From: Devosia chinhatensis
GTDB taxonomy: Bacteria; Pseudomonadota; Alphaproteobacteria; Rhizobiales; Devosiaceae
Reading direction: 5' to 3'
Length of the DNA: 64,000 nt
Assembly (NCBI RefSeq): GCF_000969445.1
Contig: NZ_JZEY01000054.1
Span: forward strand, 744,001-808,000
Both the position numbers and the translations under genes were made by a program. Position 1 is the first letter of the stretch. Each line of letters begins with the position of its first letter. Shown here piece after piece: positions 27,771-40,009 of this stretch. The notes beneath the pieces are model-generated. The model did no database searches. It was not told the DNA's origin and saw nothing but the letters and a program-made list of their open reading frames with translations.

Positions 27771-28940
27771 TCAGCGGCCCTGCCAATGGCGGCGCAGCGT
27801 GCTGGGCGTATGCATGTTGTCATAGAGATAGGCCCAGAAGTCGCGCCGCTGCTCGGGCTGCACCGTCTTCCAGATCTCGTGCACGGCCATGTCGCCTCCA
27901 TAATAGGCATAGACGAAGGGCGCCCTGAGATTGTGGCCGAGAAAGGCCAGCCGGGACCGGGCGGTGACCGGGTCCTGAAGGGCCTTTTCGGCGACCACGG
28001 GCACGATCTCGTCGAGGCTCATCCCCTGTTCGTGCATCATCCAGGCGGCATTGCAGCGCATGGCGCTGCGCAGCCGCTGCAGGGCCACGCCAAGCTCGTC
28101 TTCCGGGCCATGGACCCAGTCGAGGAAGAACAGGCCATTATCGGCGATGCCTTCGAACAGGGCGCTGCTGGCCGAACTGGTGACCACCTGCGCGCCGTCG
28201 AGCGGCATGCGGCCTTCGGCTACGGCACGCTCGCGGATGTTCATATGCACGAGATGGCCGGGGAAGACCTCGTGTGTTGCCAGATGCTTGAGTGAAAAGC
28301 GCGTATAGGGGAAGTCGAGGTTGAGCAGCACCTTGCGCGTGGGATAGTCGCAATAGGCCGAGAAGGGGACCTGGGTGACGCCCTCGGGCTCCATCCATTC
28401 ATGCGCGAACGGATACATGCTGGCGCTGACCCGGTCACGACCCTCTGCGATGAGATCGCGCAGGACATCGAGCACCGATGAGGCCGGAATGCGGGCCTGC
28501 GCTTCCCAGCGCGCAAAGTCTTCGCCCAGGCTGCCCCCGCCATAGCCGAGTTCATCCAGCTTCTGCCGGATGATGCCGCGATAGGTTTCGAGTTCGGCAT
28601 CGGGCACCATTTGCTGCGGCACCCGGATCTGTCTGCGGACGCGGTCGGCGAAAGAGATCGGCCGCTCCTCGAACGTGTCCAAGAGGGCGAGCAGGGAATC
28701 GATCATCTCGCCCACATAATCGGCGCGCAGAGCACTTTCCGATTGGGTGGGGAGCCGTGCCGCCAGCGCGCTCAATTCCTCCCGGGCGTGGCCATAATCG
28801 CGCAAAGGGCGCGGGGCGACTTCGGCCATCGCCACCGGAATGAGGCCTTCCTTGTCGAGAAACCCGTCGCTGCGGGGCGTGCTGCGATAGAGCGCGTCGA
28901 TGCCGGCGGTCAGCTCTGCAAGGTCCTTGCCGATCTGCAT
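27771..28940 (-). CDS. DUF885-family putative metallohydrolase (short form)
   Basis: A protein of about 389 aa with the DUF885 zinc-site motif HEVFPGH (His225-His231 counted from the upstream ATG at 28946), a variant of HExxH/HExxPGH, followed by HLVHMNIRER and a downstream Glu-rich helix (SSALFEGIADNGLFFLDWV). Most DUF885 proteins are about 550-600 aa and secreted; this one is shorter and lacks a signal peptide, so it should be cytosolic. GGAG lies 8 nt before the ATG at 28940 and only 2 nt before that at 28946, so I prefer the former. It is downstream of the aldo/keto reductase in the same operon. The family is thought to contain peptidases, which fits the neighbouring peptide-uptake operon. 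Confidence 0.8.
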   Translation of the reverse strand: MQIGKDLAELTAGIDALYRSTPRSDGFLDKEGLIPVAMAEVAPRPLRDYGHAREELSALAARLPTQSESALRADYVGEMIDSLLALLDTFEERPISFADRVRRQIRVPQQMVPDAELETYRGIIRQKLDELGYGGGSLGEDFARWEAQARIPASSVLDVLRDLIAEGRDRVSASMYPFAHEWMEPEGVTQVPFSAYCDYPTRKVLLNLDFPYTRFSLKHLATHEVFPGHLVHMNIRERAVAEGRMPLDGAQVVTSSASSALFEGIADNGLFFLDWVHGPEDELGVALQRLRSAMRCNAAWMMHEQGMSLDEIVPVVAEKALQDPVTARSRLAFLGHNLRAPFVYAYYGGDMAVHEIWKTVQPEQRRDFWAYLYDNMHTPSTLRRHWQGR

Positions 28941-28951
28941 GTCCATTGCTC

Positions 28952-29923
28952 CTAGTGGTGTCCGGCAACCGGCTTGGGATGGTAGGGTGCTTCCATCAGC
29001 TTGACGTCATCCTCGCTGAGCTGAACCTCGAGCGCGGCGATGGCGTCATCGAACTGATGCAGCTTGGAAATGCCGACGATGGGGGCGGTGATGCCCGGGC
29101 GGGTCGCCACCCAGGCATAGGCGATCTGTGCAGCAGGGCGGCCATGGCGCTCCGCAACCTGCCGGACGGCGGCGACAACCGCGTCGTCCTGCTCCTTGCT
29201 GCGGTCATAGAGGGCGCCAGCGGTCTTGTCCGTCTGCGAGCGGGTGGTTTCGTCGCTCGTGCGACCGGCTAGCCGTCCGCGGGCGAGGGGGCTCCAGGGG
29301 ATGACCCCGACGCCCTCGGACCGGCAGAGGGGCAGCATTTCGCGCTCTTCTTCGCGATAGATCAGATTGTAATGGGGCTGCATGGACACGAATTTTGCCC
29401 AGCCATGCGCCTTTTGCAGGCCAAGGGCCTTCATGAATTGCCAGGCATGCATCGAGGAGGCGCCGAGATAGCGAACCTTGCCGGCGCGCACGACATCGTT
29501 GAGCGCATCGAGCGTTTCCTCGAGCGGGGTGTCGTAGTCGAACCGGTGCAGCTGGTAGAGGTCGATATAGTCGGTGCCCAGGCGCTTGAGGCTGCCGTCG
29601 ACCGCCTCGAAGATGTGCTTGCGCGACAGGCCGCGATCGTTGGGGTCGGTGCTCATCGGATTGTAGAGCTTGGTGGCAAGCACCAGCTTGTGGCGCGGAA
29701 TCGGCTTGAGGACCCGGCCCACGACGTCTTCGCTTGCCCCGGCCGAATACATGTCTGCCAAATCGAAGAAATTGATCCCCAGGTCGACCGCCTTGTCGAT
29801 GATCGGGCGCGAGGCCTCCTCGTCCAGCACCCAGGGCGCCCAGTTCGGGGAACCGAAGGTCATGCAGCCCAAGGCCAGCCGCGACACTTTGAGTCCAGTA
29901 CGACCGAGATTGACATAATCCAT
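28952..29923 (-). CDS. Aldo/keto reductase
   Basis: A 323-aa TIM-barrel oxidoreductase. The catalytic tetrad is recognisable: Asp in FFDLADMYSAGASE (about 54-67, with Tyr in the same stretch), Lys in VLATKLYNP (about 81-89), and His in LYQLHRFDYDTP (about 122-133). The NADPH site lies in the C-terminal third (GVIPWSPLARGRLAG). It resembles the YajO/Tas-like AKR group that reduces aldehydes and ketones, often with broad specificity. It is the first gene of the two-gene - strand unit with the DUF885 protein and is divergent from the GntR-type regulator, which may control both sides. Confidence 0.93.
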   Translation of the reverse strand: MDYVNLGRTGLKVSRLALGCMTFGSPNWAPWVLDEEASRPIIDKAVDLGINFFDLADMYSAGASEDVVGRVLKPIPRHKLVLATKLYNPMSTDPNDRGLSRKHIFEAVDGSLKRLGTDYIDLYQLHRFDYDTPLEETLDALNDVVRAGKVRYLGASSMHAWQFMKALGLQKAHGWAKFVSMQPHYNLIYREEEREMLPLCRSEGVGVIPWSPLARGRLAGRTSDETTRSQTDKTAGALYDRSKEQDDAVVAAVRQVAERHGRPAAQIAYAWVATRPGITAPIVGISKLHQFDDAIAALEVQLSEDDVKLMEAPYHPKPVAGHH

Positions 29924-30113: not shown

Positions 30114-31118
30114 ATGTTCACATTCGACGCCTCCAGCATCGACAAGTCGCTCCCGGTTCCGGTGGGAACGCAGCTGCATGGACTTCTGAGCTATGTGCTC
30201 TCGTTCAGCGACATGCCCTATGGCACCAAGCTGCAATCGGTTCGTCAGCTCGCTGCCGAACTCGGCGTGGCGCCGATGACGGTGAGCCAGGTCTATCAGC
30301 AGCTGCGCGATGACGGCCTGATAGAGATGCGGGCGGGACTGGGCGCCTTCACGGTGCGCGATCCGCGTCGGGCGCTGGACGACAACCAGCCCATCAATGC
30401 CCTCAGCCGCGACATCGACGCCATCATCGCCAAGGCCGAAGCCCTGGGCGTGCCGGCCATGTCGCTGGTTGCCATGATCAATGCACGCGCGCACATGCGC
30501 CGGCCCGAACTGGGGCTCAACATCGTCTTCGTCTGCATCTTCGAGGGGCCCGGCCGCGATTATGTCGACCAGATCCGTCCCACGCTGTCGGTGCTCGATA
30601 CGATCGAGCTCGTTACGCTGGAGAGCCTGCGCCAGGAGGGCCCGCAACGCCGGGCATGCCTCGCGGCCGACCTGGTGGTGACCTTCGGGCATCGCGAGGC
30701 GGAAGTGCGGACCCTGCTCAAGGGTGCGGACGTGCTGGGACTGCGCTTCCTGCCGTCGCAGCGCACCCGACAGACCCTGGCCGGTCTCGACCCGCGGGCC
30801 CGCGTCGCCGCCGTCACCCACTTTCAGGAATACATCGCCATCATGAGGCCCAGCGTGCGCGAATTCGCGCCGCATGTCTCGGACATCCGCGTGACCTGGT
30901 CGTCCGCCCCGGACCTCACCGAGATCCTGGCGGCCTGCGATGCCGTGGTCTTTGCCTCGGGCGCCGATCACATCGCCCAGCTCGTCCGACCCGGCGTCCA
31001 GTGCTTCGAATATCGGCATGCCCCCGATCCGGGCGCGCTCGAAACAATCCTTGCTCCTCGACTGACGGCCCTGCGCCAATCCAAGGGCGGTCAGGGCGCG
31101 GAGCGGAATAGTGCCTAG
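30114..31118 (+). CDS. GntR-type winged-helix regulator with an unusual effector domain
   Basis: A regulator of about 334 aa. The GntR wHTH is clear near residues 25-82: LPYGTKL-like MPYGTKLQSVRQLAAELGV, then MTVSQVYQQLRDDGLIEMRAGLGAFTV. The C-terminal ~200 residues (LNIVFVCIFEGPGRDYVDQIRP..., AADLVVTFGHREAEVRTLL) look like an alternating alpha/beta binding fold, not the FCD, UTRA or aminotransferase domains of the main GntR branches. The start is uncertain: ATG 30114 lacks a clear ribosome site and a GTG at 30102 is an alternative. The peptide/amide operon begins only 21 bp after its stop, so it is probably the first gene of that operon and autoregulated. Confidence 0.8.
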   Translation: MFTFDASSIDKSLPVPVGTQLHGLLSYVLSFSDMPYGTKLQSVRQLAAELGVAPMTVSQVYQQLRDDGLIEMRAGLGAFTVRDPRRALDDNQPINALSRDIDAIIAKAEALGVPAMSLVAMINARAHMRRPELGLNIVFVCIFEGPGRDYVDQIRPTLSVLDTIELVTLESLRQEGPQRRACLAADLVVTFGHREAEVRTLLKGADVLGLRFLPSQRTRQTLAGLDPRARVAAVTHFQEYIAIMRPSVREFAPHVSDIRVTWSSAPDLTEILAACDAVVFASGADHIAQLVRPGVQCFEYRHAPDPGALETILAPRLTALRQSKGGQGAERNSA

Positions 31119-31139: not shown

Positions 31140-32681
31140 GTGAAGCATTTTCTGTTGACCACCAGCGCCATCGTCGCGCTGAGTTTCATGCCCGTGCAGG
31201 CCGGCATGGCCCAGGACAGCAACACGCTGGTCGTGGGCATGGACGTCGATGCCGGAACGCTCGATCCGCGCCTGATGCGCGACACGACGGCATCGCGCAC
31301 CGCCGATCTCATCTATTCGGGCCTCGTGCACATCACGCCGAGCCTCGAGGCCGTGCCGGACCTGGCCGAAAGCTGGGAAACGCCCGATCCCACCACCTTC
31401 ATCTTCAAGCTGCGCCCTGACCTGACCTTTTCGGATGGCAGCCCGCTGACGGCAGATGACGTCGTGTTCACCTTCACGACGCTGATCGATCCCGACCTCA
31501 ACGCGCCCTCGCGCGCGCTCTATACCCCGATCAGCGCCGTGGAAGCGGTGGATGCGCAGACCGTCAAGTTCACCCTGAGCGCGCCCTATGCGCCGCTCCT
31601 GAGCTATCTCGATATCGGTATCGTTCCCAAGGCGCTGGTCGAAGGCGGCCACGACATCGCGCTCAACCCGGTCGGCGCGGGCCCGATGAAGCTGGTGTCC
31701 TGGAACCGTGGCAGCGAGATCGTCCTCGAAGCCAACGAGAATTACTGGGGCGAGGCTCCGGCCATCGAGAACGTCACGCTCAAGATCATCGGCGACAATT
31801 CCGCCCGCTCGCAGGCCTTCGAGGCCGGTGACCTCGACGTCGTGCAATCGCCGCTGGCGCCGCAGGATATCGAGCGTCTTTCAGCCGATGACCGCTTCGG
31901 CAATGTCATCACCGCTGGCCTGGGCGTGAACTACCTGAACTTCAACGCCAAGGACCCGCTCCTGGCCGACCCGAAGATGCGCCAGGCCTTCGCCATGCTG
32001 GTGGACCAGGACACCATCGTCAACGACATCTATGAAGGCGTCGACCAGGTCGCGACCTCCATCATCCTGCCCTCGTCCTGGGCCTATTCCGACAGCATCA
32101 CGCAGCCGACCTTCGACATCGACGGCGCCATCGCGCTGTTCAACGAGCTGGGCTGGTCGGACACCGATGGCGACGGCATCCTCGACAAAGACGGCAAGCC
32201 GCTCGAAGTGACGCTCGCCACCCACAGCGAAGACACCAACCGCGTCCAGACCGTGGAATTCCTGCAGGCCATGTTCGAGGCCGCCGGCGTCAAGGCGATC
32301 GCGCAGATCAGCGACTGGCCGTCCTTCTCGACCAATTACGTCCAGCAGGGCAAGCACCAGATCGCGCTGCTCGGCTGGCTGAACATCGTTGATCCCGATC
32401 GTCTGATGTTCGCGCAGCTGACCACCGACGGGCCGACCAATTGGGGTGGCTATTCCAACCCGCAGGTCGACGAGCTGCTGCAGCTGGGTCGCTCGACGCT
32501 GGACCAGGCCGGCCGCGCCGAAGCCTATCAGGACGCCGCGGCGATCATCGCCGAAGAGCTGCCCTATTATATCGTCTCGGCTCAGGGGTATCAGCTGTTC
32601 TACGCCAAGGATCTGCCCATCGATGAAGTGCAGGCCACCCCGCGCGGCAATCTGCGCGGCCTGATCGGCTACACCGACTGA
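31140..32681 (+). CDS. ABC transporter periplasmic binding protein, family 5 (DppA/OppA-like)
   Basis: A 513-aa secreted binding protein. The signal peptide runs to about MPVQAGMAQ (residue 24). The SBP_bac_5 fold is clear: LVVGMDVDAGTLDPRLMRD near residue 31, LRPDLTFSDGSPLTADDVVFTF near 94, and ENYWGEAP near 200. These proteins bind peptides, opines, nickel or amidated sugars. GTG at 31140 follows GGAAGGG by 8 nt. A strong hairpin lies 16 bp after the stop, probably allowing higher expression of this gene than of the rest of the operon. The companion enzymes (M24-fold, AstE-like, amidohydrolase) suggest an amide or peptide-like ligand. Confidence 0.93.
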   Translation: MKHFLLTTSAIVALSFMPVQAGMAQDSNTLVVGMDVDAGTLDPRLMRDTTASRTADLIYSGLVHITPSLEAVPDLAESWETPDPTTFIFKLRPDLTFSDGSPLTADDVVFTFTTLIDPDLNAPSRALYTPISAVEAVDAQTVKFTLSAPYAPLLSYLDIGIVPKALVEGGHDIALNPVGAGPMKLVSWNRGSEIVLEANENYWGEAPAIENVTLKIIGDNSARSQAFEAGDLDVVQSPLAPQDIERLSADDRFGNVITAGLGVNYLNFNAKDPLLADPKMRQAFAMLVDQDTIVNDIYEGVDQVATSIILPSSWAYSDSITQPTFDIDGAIALFNELGWSDTDGDGILDKDGKPLEVTLATHSEDTNRVQTVEFLQAMFEAAGVKAIAQISDWPSFSTNYVQQGKHQIALLGWLNIVDPDRLMFAQLTTDGPTNWGGYSNPQVDELLQLGRSTLDQAGRAEAYQDAAAIIAEELPYYIVSAQGYQLFYAKDLPIDEVQATPRGNLRGLIGYTD

Positions 32682-32697
32682 TCAACCGAACGAAAAT

Positions 32698-32720
32698 GGC
32701 CGGCGCTTCGTGCGCCGGCC
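32698..32720 (+). terminator. Perfect hairpin directly after the family-5 binding-protein gene
   Basis: A 9-bp perfect GC stem (GGCCGGCGC/GCGCCGGCC) with a TTCGT loop, 16 bp after the stop and 28 bp before the next ATG. No T-run follows, so it is probably an intra-operon stabiliser or attenuator. Confidence 0.65.
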
Positions 32721-32748: not shown

Positions 32749-33921
32749 ATGGCCTTCAACCAGCGTCTGGGCGCGGATTTCTATGCGTCCGTCCAGCGTG
32801 ATCTCCGCACCGCGATGGCCCGCGATGGCATTGATGTGCTGTTGCTCGATAGCAATGACGACATCATCTATACGACCGGCTTTTCCCACTACACCACCGA
32901 ACGGCCCGTGGTCTTTGCCCTGACGCAGGACAAGGCCCTTCTGCTTGTACCTGAGCTCGAGCGCCACCATGCACTCGCCCAGGACAGTGCCGCCGAACTC
33001 GTGGTCTATTTCGAATTTCCCGGCCGCGACCGCCCATTTTCGGTTCTGGCGCGGACGCTGGGCGACATCGGTGGCGTCATCGGTCACTCGGCAGGCGTTT
33101 CCGTTGGACGCCTGGGCCAGATCGGCGCGGCCTTTCCCAATGCGCGTCTTTCGGCGTCGAGCATTGTTTCCACCATGCGGCTGCGCAAGCGTCCCGAAGA
33201 GGTGGTGTTGCAGCGCGAAGCGGCCCGTATCTCCGATTCCATGGTGCAGGCGGGCGTTGACCTCCTCAGCGAGGCGCTGACGACCGGCTCACGCATGCCC
33301 ACCGAGATCGAGATCGAGGCCCATATCATCCGGCATGCGCTCGACATCATGAACCACGAGCACGAAAACCTGATGCTGGTGCAGGGCATTGCCGGAGGCC
33401 TGGTCTATTCGGGCCTGCGCTCGGCGTTCCCCCATGGCATGCCCAGCGGGCATCGTCCGGCCCGGGGCGAGAGCATGATCCTGTCGCTGGGCTGCCGTGT
33501 CGGTGGCCGGGCAGCGGAAAGCGAGCGCACCTTCATTCTGGGCGAACCCAGCAAGGAGCAGGAGCGCTTCTATAATCTGGCACAGGAGGCGCAGGCTATC
33601 GGCACGGCCGGACTTGTGGCCGGGGCAACCTGTGCTTCGGCGGACGACCGGGCGCTGACCTTTTTGCGCGATGCCGGCATGAACCAGTATTGCCTGCACC
33701 GGGTGGGGCACGGCATGGGCGTCATGTTTCACGAGCCGCCCTGGGTCGAAGGCGGGGACGAAACCATTCTCGAGCCCGGCATGGTCTGTTCGTCCGAGCC
33801 TGCCCTCTACGTACCCGGACTGGGCGGTTTCCGCCTGGCCGATACGGTGCTGGTCACCACGGACGGGCCGGACAGCCTGACCAAATTCCCGCGCAAACTC
33901 GACGAGGTCATCCTTGGCTGA
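32749..33921 (+). CDS. M24-fold (pita-bread) enzyme with degenerate metal site, creatinase/EutD-like
   Basis: A 390-aa protein with an N-terminal creatinase-like domain (1-150) and a C-terminal pita-bread domain (155-390). Aligned to the metal-binding segments of Xaa-Pro aminopeptidase, only two of five ligands remain: His321 in RVGHGMGVMFHE and Glu350 in GMVCSSEPALY. The first Asp is Ser246 (ILSLGCR), the second is Glu257 (GRAAESERTF), and the last Glu is Ala364 (GFRLADTVLV). That pattern is expected for metal-independent members such as creatinase and the ectoine hydrolase EutD/DoeA, not for a working prolidase. A C-N bond hydrolysis of a non-peptide amide or amidine is likely. GGGAG precedes ATG 32749 by 9 nt. 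An AstE-like deacylase lies in the same operon, recalling the EutD-EutE pair. Confidence 0.82.
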   Translation: MAFNQRLGADFYASVQRDLRTAMARDGIDVLLLDSNDDIIYTTGFSHYTTERPVVFALTQDKALLLVPELERHHALAQDSAAELVVYFEFPGRDRPFSVLARTLGDIGGVIGHSAGVSVGRLGQIGAAFPNARLSASSIVSTMRLRKRPEEVVLQREAARISDSMVQAGVDLLSEALTTGSRMPTEIEIEAHIIRHALDIMNHEHENLMLVQGIAGGLVYSGLRSAFPHGMPSGHRPARGESMILSLGCRVGGRAAESERTFILGEPSKEQERFYNLAQEAQAIGTAGLVAGATCASADDRALTFLRDAGMNQYCLHRVGHGMGVMFHEPPWVEGGDETILEPGMVCSSEPALYVPGLGGFRLADTVLVTTDGPDSLTKFPRKLDEVILG

Positions 33922-33952: not shown

Positions 33953-34933
33953 ATGCTCGCCTATGTCACCCGTCGCTTGCTGCTGCTGATCCCCATGGCG
34001 ATCGGCATGGTGATCGTTACCTTCGGCCTGTTGCTGCTCATCCCCGGCGATCCGGCCGCCGTGCTGCTCGGACAGGACGCGACACCCGAGGCCATCAACA
34101 ATCTGCGCAACAGCCTGGGGCTCAACGATCCCTGGTATATTCGGCTCTGGGACTATTTCGCGGCCCTGCTGCGCGGCGATATGGGCCAGTCCATCTTCCA
34201 GAACCAGCCGGTCGCGCAGATCATTGCCGGTCGCCTGGGCGCTACGGTCGAACTGGCCATCGTGGCCCTTCTTCTTGCCAGTATCATCGGCATCACGCTG
34301 GGCGTGCTGGCGGCGATCCGGCAGGGGTCCTGGGTCGATACGGTCACCATGCTCTTCGCCCAGCTCGGCGTATCCATGCCGGTTTATTGGCTGGGCCTGC
34401 TGCTGATGCTGCTTTTTGCCGTGCAGCTGGGCTGGCTGCCGTCTATCGGCCGCGGCGTGCCGATGCATGAAGCGATCTGGGCCGCCCTGACGGGGCGCCC
34501 GCAAGTGTTGTGGACCTCCATCAGCCATATCGCGCTTCCTGCTCTGGCGCTCGCTGCCAATTCGGCCGCGATCATTTCGCGGCTGGTACGCGCCTCCATG
34601 CTGGAAGTGCTGCGTGAGGATTTCGTGCGCACCGCCTATGCCAAGGGCCTGCGCAAGGGCAGGGTGGTGGTCCGCCATGCCCTGCGCAATGCGCTGCTGC
34701 CGGTGCTCAGCGTCATCGGCCTGCGCTTCGGCGCCCTGCTGGGCGGTGCGGTGCTCACCGAATCCATCTTTGCCTGGCCCGGCCTGGGCCAGCTGACCAT
34801 CGCCGCAATCAGCCAGCGCGACCTGCCTCTCATCCAGGGCATCGTCCTGACCTTCGCCATCGTCTACGCGCTGGTGAACCTGATCGTCGACCTTCTCTAT
34901 GCCGCGGTCGATCCGCGCGTGCGTCTGGGATAA
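33953..34933 (+). CDS. ABC transporter permease, DppB-like
   Basis: A 326-aa protein with six predicted membrane spans and the first-permease N-terminus MLAYVTRRLLLLIPMAIGMVIVTF. The large periplasmic loop (LLGQDATPEAINNLRNSLGLNDPWYIRLWDY, about 37-67) is typical of DppB/OppB. The EAA-like loop reads REDFVRTAYAKGLRKGRVVVRHALRNALLP (about 222-251). It forms the channel with the next gene product. The TAA stop shares a base with the ATG of that gene. Confidence 0.94.
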   Translation: MLAYVTRRLLLLIPMAIGMVIVTFGLLLLIPGDPAAVLLGQDATPEAINNLRNSLGLNDPWYIRLWDYFAALLRGDMGQSIFQNQPVAQIIAGRLGATVELAIVALLLASIIGITLGVLAAIRQGSWVDTVTMLFAQLGVSMPVYWLGLLLMLLFAVQLGWLPSIGRGVPMHEAIWAALTGRPQVLWTSISHIALPALALAANSAAIISRLVRASMLEVLREDFVRTAYAKGLRKGRVVVRHALRNALLPVLSVIGLRFGALLGGAVLTESIFAWPGLGQLTIAAISQRDLPLIQGIVLTFAIVYALVNLIVDLLYAAVDPRVRLG

Positions 34934-35793
34934 TGGCCATGCGACTGCCCAAGCCTCTCACCAATGTCTCGCTGGTCGTCGGCGCGCTGATTTCGCTGAC
35001 CATCATCCTGCTGGCCATCTTCGCACCCTATGTGGCAACCCACGGGGTCGAGCAGATGGACATGCGCAACCGCTTCGACGGCCCGACCTTCGAGCACATC
35101 CTGGGAACCGACAATTTCGGTCGCGATCTGTGGTCCCGCCTGGTTTTCGGTGCACGGATCTCGCTCACCATTGCGGTGATCTCGGTAACGGCCTCTGCCC
35201 TCATCGGCACCGTCGTGGGCCTCGTGGCTGGCTATTTCGGCGGCTGGGTCGACCAGGTGCTGATGCGCATCACCGACATTTTCCTTGGCTTCCCGGCCAT
35301 CGTACTAGCCCTGGCCATCGTCGCTGTCCTAGGGCCGGGCGTGCTCAACGTCTCGCTGGCCATCATCGTTGTGGCCTGGACCGAATATGCCCGTGTCGTG
35401 CGCTCGACCACGCTCGTGCTTCGCGAGCAGAACTACGTCCAGGCCGCCAAGGCCCTGGGCGCCAGCCCGCTGCGCATCCTGTTCCGCGAAATCCTGCCCA
35501 ATGCCATGGGGCCGATCATCGTCCTGGCCTCGCTGGGCCTGGGCACCGCGATCATCTCGGAATCGGCGCTGAGCTTCCTCGGCTTCGGCCTGCCGCCTCC
35601 GGAGCCGACCTGGGGCTGGACCCTGGCCTATGGCACCCGCTTCATGCGCGACGCCCCCTGGCTCTCCATCATTTCGGGCCTGACCATCATGGTCACCGTG
35701 CTCGGTTTCAATCTCCTCGGCGACGGATTGCGGGACGTGCTCGATCCGCGTCAGCTCTCCCGCGCTGGAGCAAAGGCCGCCAAGGCCAAATAA
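34933..35793 (+). CDS. ABC transporter permease, DppC-like
   Basis: A 286-aa six-span permease. Family features are LGTDNFGRDLWSRLVFGARISL near residue 55, GYFGGWVDQVLMRITDIFLGFP around 98-119, and the EAA loop EQNYVQAAKALGASPLRILFREILPN around 162-187. It is the partner of the DppB-like permease and directly overlaps its stop by one base. The segment GLPPPEPTWG near residue 220 is strongly conserved in DppC/OppC. The import specificity lies with the binding protein encoded at the operon's start. Confidence 0.95.
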   Translation: MAMRLPKPLTNVSLVVGALISLTIILLAIFAPYVATHGVEQMDMRNRFDGPTFEHILGTDNFGRDLWSRLVFGARISLTIAVISVTASALIGTVVGLVAGYFGGWVDQVLMRITDIFLGFPAIVLALAIVAVLGPGVLNVSLAIIVVAWTEYARVVRSTTLVLREQNYVQAAKALGASPLRILFREILPNAMGPIIVLASLGLGTAIISESALSFLGFGLPPPEPTWGWTLAYGTRFMRDAPWLSIISGLTIMVTVLGFNLLGDGLRDVLDPRQLSRAGAKAAKAK

Positions 35794-35810: not shown

Positions 35811-36755
35811 ATGGTCAAGTCCATCAACCAGCTTCGCCCGAAGTTCACCACGCATGCCGATGGCAGCGACGCGGTCCTCTATATCCACGAACTGGTCGGT
35901 GAGCAGGACGGCCCCACGATCGGTATCTCCGCCGCGATCCACGGCAACGAGAACACCGGCTCGCAGGCCATTCTGGAACTCTATCGGCTGCTCAAGGACG
36001 TGCCGCTCAAGGGACGTATCCTGCTGCTCCCGGTGGCCAACCCCTATGCCTTTGCCGTCAACGAGCGCTATTCGACCATCGACAAGGTCGATCTCAATCG
36101 TCAGTTCCCCGGCAATCCCAAGGGCACCTATAGCCAGCAGCTCGCCCATGCCATGACCGAGCACTATCTGAACGTCATCGATGTCCATATCGACCTGCAT
36201 TCGGGCACCGACCGGCCGACCGTCGACTACGTCTATATCTGGAATGACGAGCGCCTTTCGCGCGCCTTCGGCTCCAAGCTGCTCTACCGTCCGGTCGAGA
36301 ACAAGCAGGGCACCGTCTTTGGCGGCACCACCAAGTCGGTGACCATCGACACCCGCAACATTCCGGTTGCGGTGATCGAGCTGGGCGGCGGGATTGTCGA
36401 CCAGGGCCCCTATCTCAAGCGCACGGTCGACGGCGTCCTCAACATGCTCAAGACACTGGGCGCAATTCCAGGCGATCCCTGGACCAACCCGCAGCAAATC
36501 GTCGTCAACGAACTGGCCGGCATTCGTCCCAGCCAGGGCGGTTGGCTCGAGCCGCTGGCGCCCGCCAATGGCGAGATCATCAAGGGCGGCGAACTGCTCG
36601 GCCGGGTCGTCAGCCCCTATACGTTCGAGACGCTGGAAGAGATCCCGACGCCTTTCGAGAATGGCGTGATGATCATGCAGCACCTCACCCGCAACCTCGT
36701 CCATAGCGGCGATTATGGCTTCATGGTCGGCAATCTCGAAGGCGCCACCGACTGA
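35811..36755 (+). CDS. Succinylglutamate desuccinylase/aspartoacylase-like deacylase (AstE/EutE family)
   Basis: A 314-aa M14-fold zinc hydrolase. The zinc ligands are in order: His44 and Glu47 in AAIHGNENTG, His130 in HIDLHSGTD; Glu190 in VIELGGG is the probable catalytic base. DLNRQFPG (94-101) is the substrate-binding motif shared by AstE, aspartoacylase and the ectoine-pathway deacetylase EutE/DoeB. A beta-barrel C-terminal domain (from about 240) closes the fold. The family removes acyl groups from N-acyl amino acids. It lies between the permease and ATPase genes of the importer, so it probably deacylates the imported compound or the product of the M24-fold enzyme. Confidence 0.9.
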   Translation: MVKSINQLRPKFTTHADGSDAVLYIHELVGEQDGPTIGISAAIHGNENTGSQAILELYRLLKDVPLKGRILLLPVANPYAFAVNERYSTIDKVDLNRQFPGNPKGTYSQQLAHAMTEHYLNVIDVHIDLHSGTDRPTVDYVYIWNDERLSRAFGSKLLYRPVENKQGTVFGGTTKSVTIDTRNIPVAVIELGGGIVDQGPYLKRTVDGVLNMLKTLGAIPGDPWTNPQQIVVNELAGIRPSQGGWLEPLAPANGEIIKGGELLGRVVSPYTFETLEEIPTPFENGVMIMQHLTRNLVHSGDYGFMVGNLEGATD

Positions 36756-36801: not shown

Positions 36802-37803
36802 ATGAGCCAGATCAGCACTGTGCAAGCACCCGCGATCGAGGTGAAGAACCTCGAAATCGAGATCATGGGCGGGCAGGGTCCGTTTTCCGTCGTCTCCGAC
36901 ATGAACTTGTCCGTGCGGCCGGGGGAAACGCTCTGCATCGTGGGCGAGAGCGGGTGCGGGAAATCCATGACCGCCCTGTCCCTGCTGCGCCTCCTGCCCG
37001 AGGCGGCCAAGGTGACGAAGGGCGAAATCCGCATAGATGGCGAGGATTTCCTGACCATGGGCCAGCGCCAGGTGGAGCAGTTCCGCGGCGAAAAGATCGC
37101 GATGATCTTTCAGGAGCCGCTGACCGCCCTCAACCCGGTGCTGCGCGTCGGCGAGCAGATTTCCGAGGCCGTGCGGGCCCACCGCAAATGCAGTGGCGCG
37201 GAGGCGCATGCGCGTGCCGTCGAGGTGCTGCGCATGGTGCAGATGCCCGACCCCGAACGCCGCGCCACCCAGTTTCCGCATGAATTGTCGGGTGGTATGC
37301 GCCAGCGCGCCATGATTGCGCTGGCTCTGGCTTGCGACCCCAAGATCATCATCGCCGATGAGCCGACCACGGCGCTCGACGTGACCATCCAGGCCCAGAT
37401 CCTGGGGCTGATTTCCGATCTCCAGAAGCGCCTGGGCACGGCCCAGATCCTGATCACGCACGATCTGGGCGTGGTCTCGGAGGTCGCCGACCGGGTGATC
37501 GTCATGTATGCCGGGCGCAAGATCGAGGAGGCGAGCATCTTCGACCTCTTCGACAACCCCATCCATCCCTATACGATCGGACTCATGGGCGCCGTTCCCG
37601 GCGCCGGGGCAGCCTCGGAAGACGGCGACCGGCTGGCTGACATTCCCGGCACCGTACCCCCGCTCTGGAACCTGCCCAAGGGATGCGCCTTCGCCCCGCG
37701 TTGCCCGACCGCCTCGGCGCGCTGCCTTGAGGAGCGTCCGCCACTTGTTGAAAAACGCCCGGGCCACTGGGCTGCCTGCTGGGATCATGTCGATGCAGCG
37801 TGA
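36802..37803 (+). CDS. ABC transporter ATPase, DppD-like
   Basis: A 333-aa ATPase. Walker A is GESGCGKSM near residue 51, the signature LSGGMRQRAMIALAL near 163, Walker B IIIADEPTTALD near 184, and the H-loop is in LITHDLG. The C-terminus carries the oligopeptide-type extension with cysteines (CAFAPRCPTASARCLEERPP), which bind an iron-sulfur cluster in some family members. It dimerises with the DppF-like ATPase. The stop overlaps that gene's start. A 46-bp gap separates it from the AstE-like gene. Confidence 0.94.
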   Translation: MSQISTVQAPAIEVKNLEIEIMGGQGPFSVVSDMNLSVRPGETLCIVGESGCGKSMTALSLLRLLPEAAKVTKGEIRIDGEDFLTMGQRQVEQFRGEKIAMIFQEPLTALNPVLRVGEQISEAVRAHRKCSGAEAHARAVEVLRMVQMPDPERRATQFPHELSGGMRQRAMIALALACDPKIIIADEPTTALDVTIQAQILGLISDLQKRLGTAQILITHDLGVVSEVADRVIVMYAGRKIEEASIFDLFDNPIHPYTIGLMGAVPGAGAASEDGDRLADIPGTVPPLWNLPKGCAFAPRCPTASARCLEERPPLVEKRPGHWAACWDHVDAA

Positions 37804-38767
37804 ACGCGAACCGCTCCTGAGCGTAGAAAACCTAGAGGTTCATTTCCCCATTCGCGCAGGCGTGCTCCAGCGCCAGGTGGGTGCGGTCAAGGCCGTGGAT
37901 GGGGTGAGCTTTTCGCTCGACCGTGGTGAGACGCTGAGCATTGTGGGGGAAAGCGGCTGCGGAAAATCCACCACCGGCCTCGCCCTGATGGGCCTCGTCA
38001 AGCCGACCGGCGGGCTGGTGCGCTTCGATGGCGAGGAAATCAAGGGCTTCAGCCGTGCGGCGCTCAAGAGCTATCGGCGGCGCATGCAGATCGTGTTCCA
38101 GGACCCGTTCTCCTCGCTCAACCCGCGCCAGAAGGTGAAGGACATCATCCGCGCGCCGCTCGATATCCATAAGGTCGGCACCCCGGCCGAACGCAACGAG
38201 CGCGTTGCCGAGCTGATGCAGCGAGTGGGCCTGAGGCCCGACCAGGCCGACAATTTCGCGCACCAGTTTTCCGGCGGCCAGCGCCAGCGTATCGGTATTG
38301 CCCGCGCCCTGGCGCTCAACCCCGACGTCATCGTCTGCGACGAGCCCGTCTCGGCGCTCGACGTCTCGGTGCAGGCGCAGATCCTCAACCTGCTGAGCGA
38401 CCTGCAGCGCGATCTGGGTGTTTCCTATCTCTCGATCTCGCACGATCTGGGCGTGGTCGAATTCATCTCCCATCGGGTGGCGGTGATGTATCTGGGCAAG
38501 ATCGTCGAGATCGCGCCCAAGAAGACCATTTTCGCCAATCCGCGCCATCCCTATACCGAGCTGCTGATGCGCTCCGCGCCCTCGCGCGACCCGCGCAAGC
38601 GGCACGCCTTCAGCGCCAGCAATGACGATATGCCGAGCGCCACCCGCAAGCCGGCGGGATGTCCGTTCCATACGCGTTGCCCGCTGGCCACCGATATCTG
38701 CAAGTCCGACGAGCCGGCGCTGACCGCGCGCGACGACGGCCAGCTCGTAGCCTGCCACCACCGCTGA
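37793..38767 (+). CDS. ABC transporter ATPase, DppF-like
   Basis: A 324-aa ATPase. Walker A is GESGCGKST near residue 54, the signature is FSGGQRQRIGIARAL near 160, Walker B VIVCDEPVSALD near 181, and the H-loop SISHDLG. The C-terminal oligopeptide-type motif GCPFHTRCPLATDICKSDEP is present. Two in-frame ATGs (37787 and 37793) lie inside the end of the DppD-like gene; the second has better spacing from GGGAT. It completes the five-subunit importer. The far longer open frame to 37508 overlaps the upstream ATPase gene and is not coding. Confidence 0.93.
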   Translation: MQREREPLLSVENLEVHFPIRAGVLQRQVGAVKAVDGVSFSLDRGETLSIVGESGCGKSTTGLALMGLVKPTGGLVRFDGEEIKGFSRAALKSYRRRMQIVFQDPFSSLNPRQKVKDIIRAPLDIHKVGTPAERNERVAELMQRVGLRPDQADNFAHQFSGGQRQRIGIARALALNPDVIVCDEPVSALDVSVQAQILNLLSDLQRDLGVSYLSISHDLGVVEFISHRVAVMYLGKIVEIAPKKTIFANPRHPYTELLMRSAPSRDPRKRHAFSASNDDMPSATRKPAGCPFHTRCPLATDICKSDEPALTARDDGQLVACHHR

Positions 38768-38776
38768 GTTGATCCC

Positions 38777-40009
38777 ATGACGCCTTCCTATCTCTTCACC
38801 AATGGCCGCATTCTCGATGCGGAGGCCGGTACGCTGCACGACGGGCTCGACGTGCTGGTGAATGGCCCGCAGATCGCGGCGATCGGTGCCGCTCTCGCAC
38901 GGTCCGAAGCGACCGAGGTGATCGACCTGGACGGCAGGACGCTGATGCCCGGCCTCATCGACTGCCACGTGCATGTCGTTGCCGAAACGCTCGATCTGTG
39001 GGGCAACATGATCGCGCCGGCCTCACTGTCGGCCTTGCGGTCGGCGCGGGTGATGACCGAGGCGCTGCACCGGGGTTTCACCACGCTGCGCGATCTGGGC
39101 GGAGCCGATTACGGCCTCGTGCGGGCGGTCAATGAAGGTCTGCTCGACGGGCCACGCCTCGTGATCTGCGGCAAGGGGCTGACGACGACAGGCGGCCATG
39201 CCGACCTGCGCCAGCGCACCGACGATCGCCCGGGACTGTTCTCGGACCGGCTAGGATCGATGGGCCTCATCGTTGATGGCGTGGACAACGTGCGCACGGC
39301 CTGCCGAACCATGATCAAGGAAGGCGCGCATTTCATCAAGGTGATGGCCAATGGCGGCGTGTCGTCGCCGAACGACCCCATTCACTCCATTCAGTATTCG
39401 CGCGACGAAATCGCGGCGATGGTGGAAGAGGCCGAAAATGCCGGCCTCTACGTCGCTGCCCATGTCTATACCGACAAGGCCATCCGCCGATGTGCCGAGC
39501 TCGGCGTACATTCGCTCGAGCATTGCAACCTCATCGAGCCGGAAACCGCGCGCATCGCCGCCGAAAAGGGCTGCATCGCGGTGCCGACGCTGGTGGCCTA
39601 CGATGCCCTCGCCCTGGAAGGGGAAGCACTGGGGCTCGGTGCCTCCGAGTTCGCGAAGATCGAGATCGTGCGCCAGGGGGGCCTGCGGTCGCTCGAAATC
39701 ATGCGCGATGCCGGATTGCCGATGGCATTCGGTTCCGATCTCCTCGGGCAGCTTCGCAAATATCACTGCATGGAATTCGAGCTCCTGGCCAAGGTGCTGA
39801 CACCGGCCGAGATCATTCGCTCGGCCACCATTATCGGCGCGCGGCTTTGCCGGCTGGACGGGCAGGTGGGTGTCGTGGCCGAAAAGGCCTTCGCCGATCT
39901 TCTGGTGGTCGATGGCAATCCGCTCGAGGACATCGCCTTGCTCCAGGATGACGGGGCGCATATGCCAATGATCATGGCCAATGGTCGCGTGGTAAAGTCT
40001 GCCCTCTAG
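38777..40009 (+). CDS. Metal-dependent amidohydrolase (Xaa-Pro dipeptidase/N-acyl-amino-acid hydrolase-like)
   Basis: A 410-aa amidohydrolase-superfamily enzyme. The binuclear metal site is complete: His64 and His66 in DCHVHV, Lys188 in HFIKVMANGG (carboxylated lysine), His229 in AAHVYTD, His249 in SLEHCN, and Asp321 in AFGSDLLG. The MANGGVSSPNDP loop is shared with the imidazolonepropionase/prolidase-like subgroup that hydrolyses L-Xaa-L-Pro and N-acyl amino acids. No signal peptide is present. It starts 10 bp after the DppF-like gene and is followed 24 bp later by lrgA. It is probably another step in cutting the imported substrate. Confidence 0.9.
   Translation: MTPSYLFTNGRILDAEAGTLHDGLDVLVNGPQIAAIGAALARSEATEVIDLDGRTLMPGLIDCHVHVVAETLDLWGNMIAPASLSALRSARVMTEALHRGFTTLRDLGGADYGLVRAVNEGLLDGPRLVICGKGLTTTGGHADLRQRTDDRPGLFSDRLGSMGLIVDGVDNVRTACRTMIKEGAHFIKVMANGGVSSPNDPIHSIQYSRDEIAAMVEEAENAGLYVAAHVYTDKAIRRCAELGVHSLEHCNLIEPETARIAAEKGCIAVPTLVAYDALALEGEALGLGASEFAKIEIVRQGGLRSLEIMRDAGLPMAFGSDLLGQLRKYHCMEFELLAKVLTPAEIIRSATIIGARLCRLDGQVGVVAEKAFADLLVVDGNPLEDIALLQDDGAHMPMIMANGRVVKSAL

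Follow-up and report, generated by a model that had tools for sequence, protein, structure and literature searches.

The window analysed here, a stretch of 64,000 nucleotides from Devosia chinhatensis, contains a transport cassette that includes a gene for an M24-fold hydrolase of 390 amino acids (32749–33921, +). The first gene of the cassette encodes a GntR-type regulator (30114–31118, +) with a winged helix, an unassigned C-terminal part and an uncertain start codon (candidates from 29937), and it is followed by the gene for an SBP_bac_5 solute-binding protein of the peptide/opine/nickel class (31140–32681, +). A 9-bp all-GC hairpin (inverted repeat, 32698–32720) separates the binding-protein gene from the M24 gene; in ABC operons, such a position is a usual one for a hairpin of transcript processing or attenuation. 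The ATG of the M24 gene is preceded by a Shine-Dalgarno-like GGGAG, and downstream of the gene lie two ABC permeases, DppB-like (33953–34933, +) and DppC-like (34933–35793, +), an AstE/AspA-type zinc deacylase (35811–36755, +), two ABC ATPases, DppD-like (36802–37803, +) and DppF-like (37787–38767, +), and an M38 amidohydrolase (38777–40009, +). The nearest NCBIfam model for the deacylase is DoeB/EutE (TIGR02994), but its score of 78.8 bits is far under the cut-off of 402.7, and it is not a true DoeB. The nearest solved structures for the M38 enzyme are 3mkv and 3feq/3n2c, the prolidases Sgx9260b and Sgx9260c (E 7e-111 and 5e-107), both of which split Xaa-Pro dipeptides and N-acyl-prolines by hydrolysis (PMC11511702). 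These M38 prolidases have no homology to the M24 protein, and a prolidase-like function in the cassette may already be covered by the M38 enzyme. The order of the cassette (regulator, SBP5, one or two copies of M24, two permeases, AstE/DoeB-type deacylase, two ATPases, M38) recurs in Devosia, Pelagibacterium, Martelella and Rhizobiaceae. Further, genes for a divergently transcribed aldo/keto reductase (28952–29923, −) and a DUF885-like protein with an HExxPGH motif (27771–28946, −) stand beside the cassette in most genomes; the Pfam match of the latter protein, which may add another metallopeptidase to the pathway, is under cut-off (E 0.003).

Along its full length, the M24 protein matches the Pfam families Creatinase_N and Peptidase_M24 (7e-13 and 4e-39; PF01321 and PF00557, both above cut-off), and structure matches support a pita-bread fold with a Creatinase_N domain, which bears out the M24 fold assigned by an earlier, sequence-only reading. 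The best PDB matches by sequence are prolidases. When the protein was aligned with Pyrococcus furiosus prolidase 1pv9, the alignment ran gapless through VVIDLGALYNHYNSDITRT / MILSLGCRVGGRAAESERT and on to the C-terminus, and the ligands Asp/Asp/His/Glu/Glu of 1pv9 fell on Ser246/Glu257/His321/Glu350/Ala364. This agrees with the sequence-only reading, which had Ser246, Glu257 and Ala364 replacing Asp, Asp and Glu, with His321 and Glu350 remaining; it had also held that the losses are real, and an alignment error as their source can be rejected, as the alignment is gapless and every relative shows the same columns. Codons 246–261 (SLGCRVGGRAAESERT, 33484–33531, +) cover the lost first ligand (Ser246), the conservative Glu257 and a new Glu259; codons 317–329 (HRVGHGMGVMFHE, 33697–33735, +) retain the prolidase-like His317, His321, His328 and Glu329; and codons 350–366 (EPALYVPGLGGFRLADT, 33796–33846, +) keep Glu350 and Arg362, with Ala364 in place of the bridging Glu. 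The sequence-only observation is thereby confirmed, with one nuance: side chains able to bind metal have been removed at positions 246 and 364, while the change from Asp to Glu at position 257 is conservative, and a count of three lost ligands out of five may overstate the loss. Apart from the lost bridging Glu, Glu257, His321 and Glu350 make up the protein ligands at the metal site with the histidine, and could possibly form a half-site that holds one metal ion. A metal-free protein is likely. Glu259, two residues past the second ligand position, aligns with the catalytic Glu262 of metal-free creatinase, Arg52 aligns with Arg64 of the creatinase partner subunit, and the position of creatinase His376 is occupied by Ala.

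The replacements proved to be fixed in orthologues: every full-length orthologue or paralogue reads SEHEA or SEHES at the five positions (more than 40 rows from Devosia to Oceanicola, some genomes being represented twice; the first set comprised 20 rows from named genomes), and an orthologue with the five canonical ligands was sought among these full-length rows and not found. The pattern is incomplete only in L020, a frameshifted draft, and in L044, which is truncated. Comparison of the M24 gene with five Devosia orthologues gave dN/dS values of 0.10–0.15, indicating purifying selection. Because the pattern is fixed and dN/dS is low, we conclude that the ligand losses date far back and have been maintained by selection; a decaying gene is rejected on the same dN/dS values and on intact copies in most genomes. 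In L020, the draft genome of Devosia aurantiaca, several genes of the locus are frameshifted (those for M24, the binding protein, AstE, the ATPase and the DUF885-like protein), probably through sequencing errors. Several genomes carry two tandem M24 genes in the cassette (L013 7816–10167, L018 7815–10167, L027 8198–10536, L028 and L088), with SEHEA in both copies wherever readable; as the active site in the M24 fold involves the partner subunit, a heterodimer of the tandem copies is conceivable, and they might form one. The genome from which the window comes encodes other M24 proteins as well, one of which is PepQ-like and has the canonical DDHEE (L024).

The ligand pattern [S/G/I/A/V]-E-H-E-[S/A] is also found in relatives from other alphaproteobacteria, Deinococcus, haloarchaea, Persicobacter and Cytobacillus. 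Plasmid-borne relatives at 23–35% identity, from Deinococcus, haloarchaea, Leisingera, Persicobacter and Cytobacillus, have neither the first nor the last ligand and read G/I/A/S-E-H-E-S, and one further genome (L098) has IEHED with Glu259 present. Thirty clade rows were set beside 16 canonical, 4 creatinase and 4 EutD rows (the creatinase sequences being confirmed against PDB entries); His229, Glu257, Glu259, Arg260, Thr261, His317, His321, His328, Glu329, Glu350, Arg362 and Asp365 were invariant throughout the clade. At position 259, canonical rows have Thr or Ser and EutD has Ser, but creatinase and all 30 clade rows have Glu. A third sub-clade, reading GEHEI (L068 1309–2643, L080 1381–2646 and L097) is without Glu259. 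We note that Gly takes its place there and that Asn replaces Asp365 in L068 and L080. Class- and phylum-wide searches of a thin genome sample, with few candidates per genome scored, yielded few further members at strict E-values.

In the creatinase numbering of Coll et al. 1990, Glu262 and Glu358 reportedly hold the guanidinium group and His232 is the catalytic histidine; we take Glu259 and His229 of the clade to be the counterparts of Glu262 and His232. The clade protein thus resembles creatinase (1chm, 1kp0 and 7yto) in the correspondence of His229, Glu259 and Glu350 to His232, Glu262 and Glu358 and in the absence of the metal-site Asp residues, but the two proteins share 25% identity, creatinase reads NAHEH where the Devosia protein reads SEHEA, and the Devosia protein keeps the prolidase His317, where creatinase has Phe. 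With M24B prolidases and aminopeptidase P (1pv9, 1wy2 and 4r60), the Devosia protein shares the fold, the N-terminal domain, His229, His317, His321, His328, Glu350 and Arg362, but these enzymes combine D-D-H-E-E with Thr or Ser at 259, whereas the Devosia protein combines S-E-H-E-A with Glu259. Against the prolidase equivalog NF040821 (NCBIfam), the M24 protein scored 140.5 bits, below the cut-off of 630. By the features tested, the clade is an M24 group without a characterised member and is neither prolidase, creatinase nor EutD. As the sequence-only reading had anticipated, relatives carry the name “Xaa-Pro peptidase family protein,” and this name is probably wrong for the clade. We found no paper on such an M24 clade in the literature, which is weak evidence of absence, subscription papers being mostly outside the coverage.

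An AlphaFold2 model built from the window and orthologue sequences had a mean pLDDT of 85.3 and a pTM of 0.86, with a weak stretch at 330–333. When the predicted model was compared with known structures by VIA-align, three creatinases came top (Z 42.5, 42.2 and 42.0, rmsd about 2 Å; the best match, 2.0 Å over 374 residues), above the best prolidase (Z 39.9) and EutD (Z 37.3). Foldseek placed prolidase 1wy2 first by E-value, but the TM-score was 0.90 for creatinase and 0.79 for prolidase. The predicted fold therefore appears nearer to creatinase than to prolidase, and a common fold proves no function. In a tree with long creatinase and EutD branches and no firm root, one branch separated the canonical rows from every noncanonical row, including creatinase and EutD (99/89), and a single loss of the metal site shared by the clade, creatinase and EutD is possible. 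The canonical rows still grouped when the ligand columns were removed (SH-aLRT 88); with distant outgroups added and creatinase dropped, the SH-aLRT of this grouping fell to 54. The four creatinase rows formed their own 100/100 group, with the query outside.

Because two metal-binding side chains are gone and Glu259 and His229 are present, creatinase-like hydrolysis is the simplest reading, and we consider the chances evenly balanced that the M24 protein is an active hydrolase working in the manner of creatinase and not as a two-metal peptidase. With half of the two-metal centre lost and a creatinase-type Glu gained, it would probably cleave a C–N bond in another way than prolidase. The peptide-groove residues of prolidase and aminopeptidase P (His317, His328, Arg362 and Arg52) are kept, the Arg52 position being supplied in the M24 fold by the partner subunit, and with this groove retained, a peptide-like compound seems a likelier substrate than creatine. 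A homodimer would close over the substrate, as in creatinase; the carboxylates of Glu257, Glu259 and Glu350 would hold a cationic nitrogen (amidine, guanidine or ammonium) at the former place of the metal; Arg52 of the partner subunit and Arg362 would bind a substrate carboxylate; and His229 would shuttle a proton while water attacks the C–N bond. From the make-up of the cassette, the SBP5 transporter would import a peptide-like compound as the substrate, the product of the M24 enzyme would be deacylated by the AstE/DoeB-type enzyme, and the M38 prolidase-like enzyme would cleave an imide bond to proline or to a residue resembling it. The M24 and AstE enzymes would be a counterpart of the EutD-EutE ectoine pair but not identical with it. 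Points against a creatinase-type enzyme include the prolidase-like His328 and HE motif, the Ala at the creatinase His376 position and the room for one metal at Glu257, His321 and Glu350.

The main alternative, to which we give well under an even chance, is a one-metal M24 hydrolase, in which the first site has been destroyed (Asp to Ser and bridging Glu to Ala) and the triad Glu257-His321-Glu350 carries a single Mn, Fe or Zn, making the protein a mononuclear amidase or dipeptidase. This triad is invariant in 30 of 30 clade rows and also in the GEHEI sub-clade that is without Glu259, and is in that respect the more constant feature; further, the histidine site is the tight metal site in Escherichia coli methionine aminopeptidase. 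Against this, the bridging Glu is always gone, the residue in place of the first Asp is in every case not a usual metal ligand, creatinase works metal-free with His and Glu at the same places, and the gain of Glu259 beside the site would be left unexplained. The DMSP lyase DddP, in which the M24 fold likewise serves a nonpeptidase reaction, offers a precedent, being first reported without metal and later shown to be an iron enzyme (PMC4108388), but DddP keeps all five metal ligands, as the clade does not, and binds two metals (PMC4108388).

That the protein is a pseudoenzyme, i.e. a noncatalytic M24 fold that serves to bind a peptide or partner, perhaps as a regulatory or transporter-associated subunit, seems to us improbable. 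The metal centre is broken, nonpeptidase M24 proteins exist (FACT Spt16 and Ebp1, with Spt16 structures among the fold matches) and tandem M24 copies occur in several genomes, but the groove and general-base residues, which pseudoenzymes rarely keep, are invariant across bacteria and archaea, and the M24 gene is located among catabolic enzymes. About equally improbable is an ordinary Xaa-Pro dipeptidase whose unusual ligands nonetheless function, as annotation pipelines assume: prolidases are the closest PDB sequences and the peptide-binding His and Arg are kept, yet two of the five ligand side chains are not normally metal-binding, the cassette has a prolidase-like M38 enzyme and the genome has the canonical DDHEE PepQ-like M24 protein. 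Lastly, an ectoine hydrolase (EutD/DoeA; 6twk and 6yo9), which the AstE/DoeB-like gene in the same operon, the fold, the lost metal ligands and weak matches (36.7 bits for the M24 protein to TIGR02993 and the above score of the AstE gene) might recall, is almost certainly wrong, with cut-offs of 613 and 403 bits, EPYMT at the ligand positions and Ser in place of Glu259 in EutD, another transporter type and a separate 100/100 clade for EutD, so that membership of this family is refuted by score and active-site pattern. No gene above the EutD model cut-off was found in the Devosia genome, and relatives have a separate EutD gene.

The neighbourhoods of the relatives bear on the substrate. In a second M24 group (46–50% identity) and in Terrarubrum (52%), the M24 gene belongs to a different SBP5 operon; behind it comes an alpha/beta hydrolase whose best models belong to the proline-iminopeptidase family, with a score under cut-off; in Deinococcus, the M24 gene is paired with such an alpha/beta hydrolase and an M19 dipeptidase; and proline-catabolism genes lie near the M24 gene in two far relatives. 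From this, we infer that imported peptide-like, perhaps proline-containing, compounds are a recurring theme. M24 relatives outside the family adjoin other transporters (SSS, TRAP and BCCT), and our substrate assignment is a guess. Tentatively, and with less confidence than we attach to a creatinase-type mechanism, we place a large M24 clade between metal-dependent prolidases and metal-free creatinase, in which the peptide shell has been kept, half the metal centre lost and the creatinase Glu gained. If true, this would show a route from a metallopeptidase active site to a metal-free hydrolase and define a new C–N hydrolase reaction on an imported peptide-like compound; a metal-free clade would possibly be a living intermediate between two-metal peptidases and creatinase, with the change of mechanism addressable via residues 246, 257, 259 and 364. 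Both the clade and the cassettes around it also point to a class of imported peptide-like nutrients. We also note that, in L044, an M24-fold protein near the cassette (1746–2930, −) reads E-T-Y-E-I at the ligand positions, a different kind of ligand loss.
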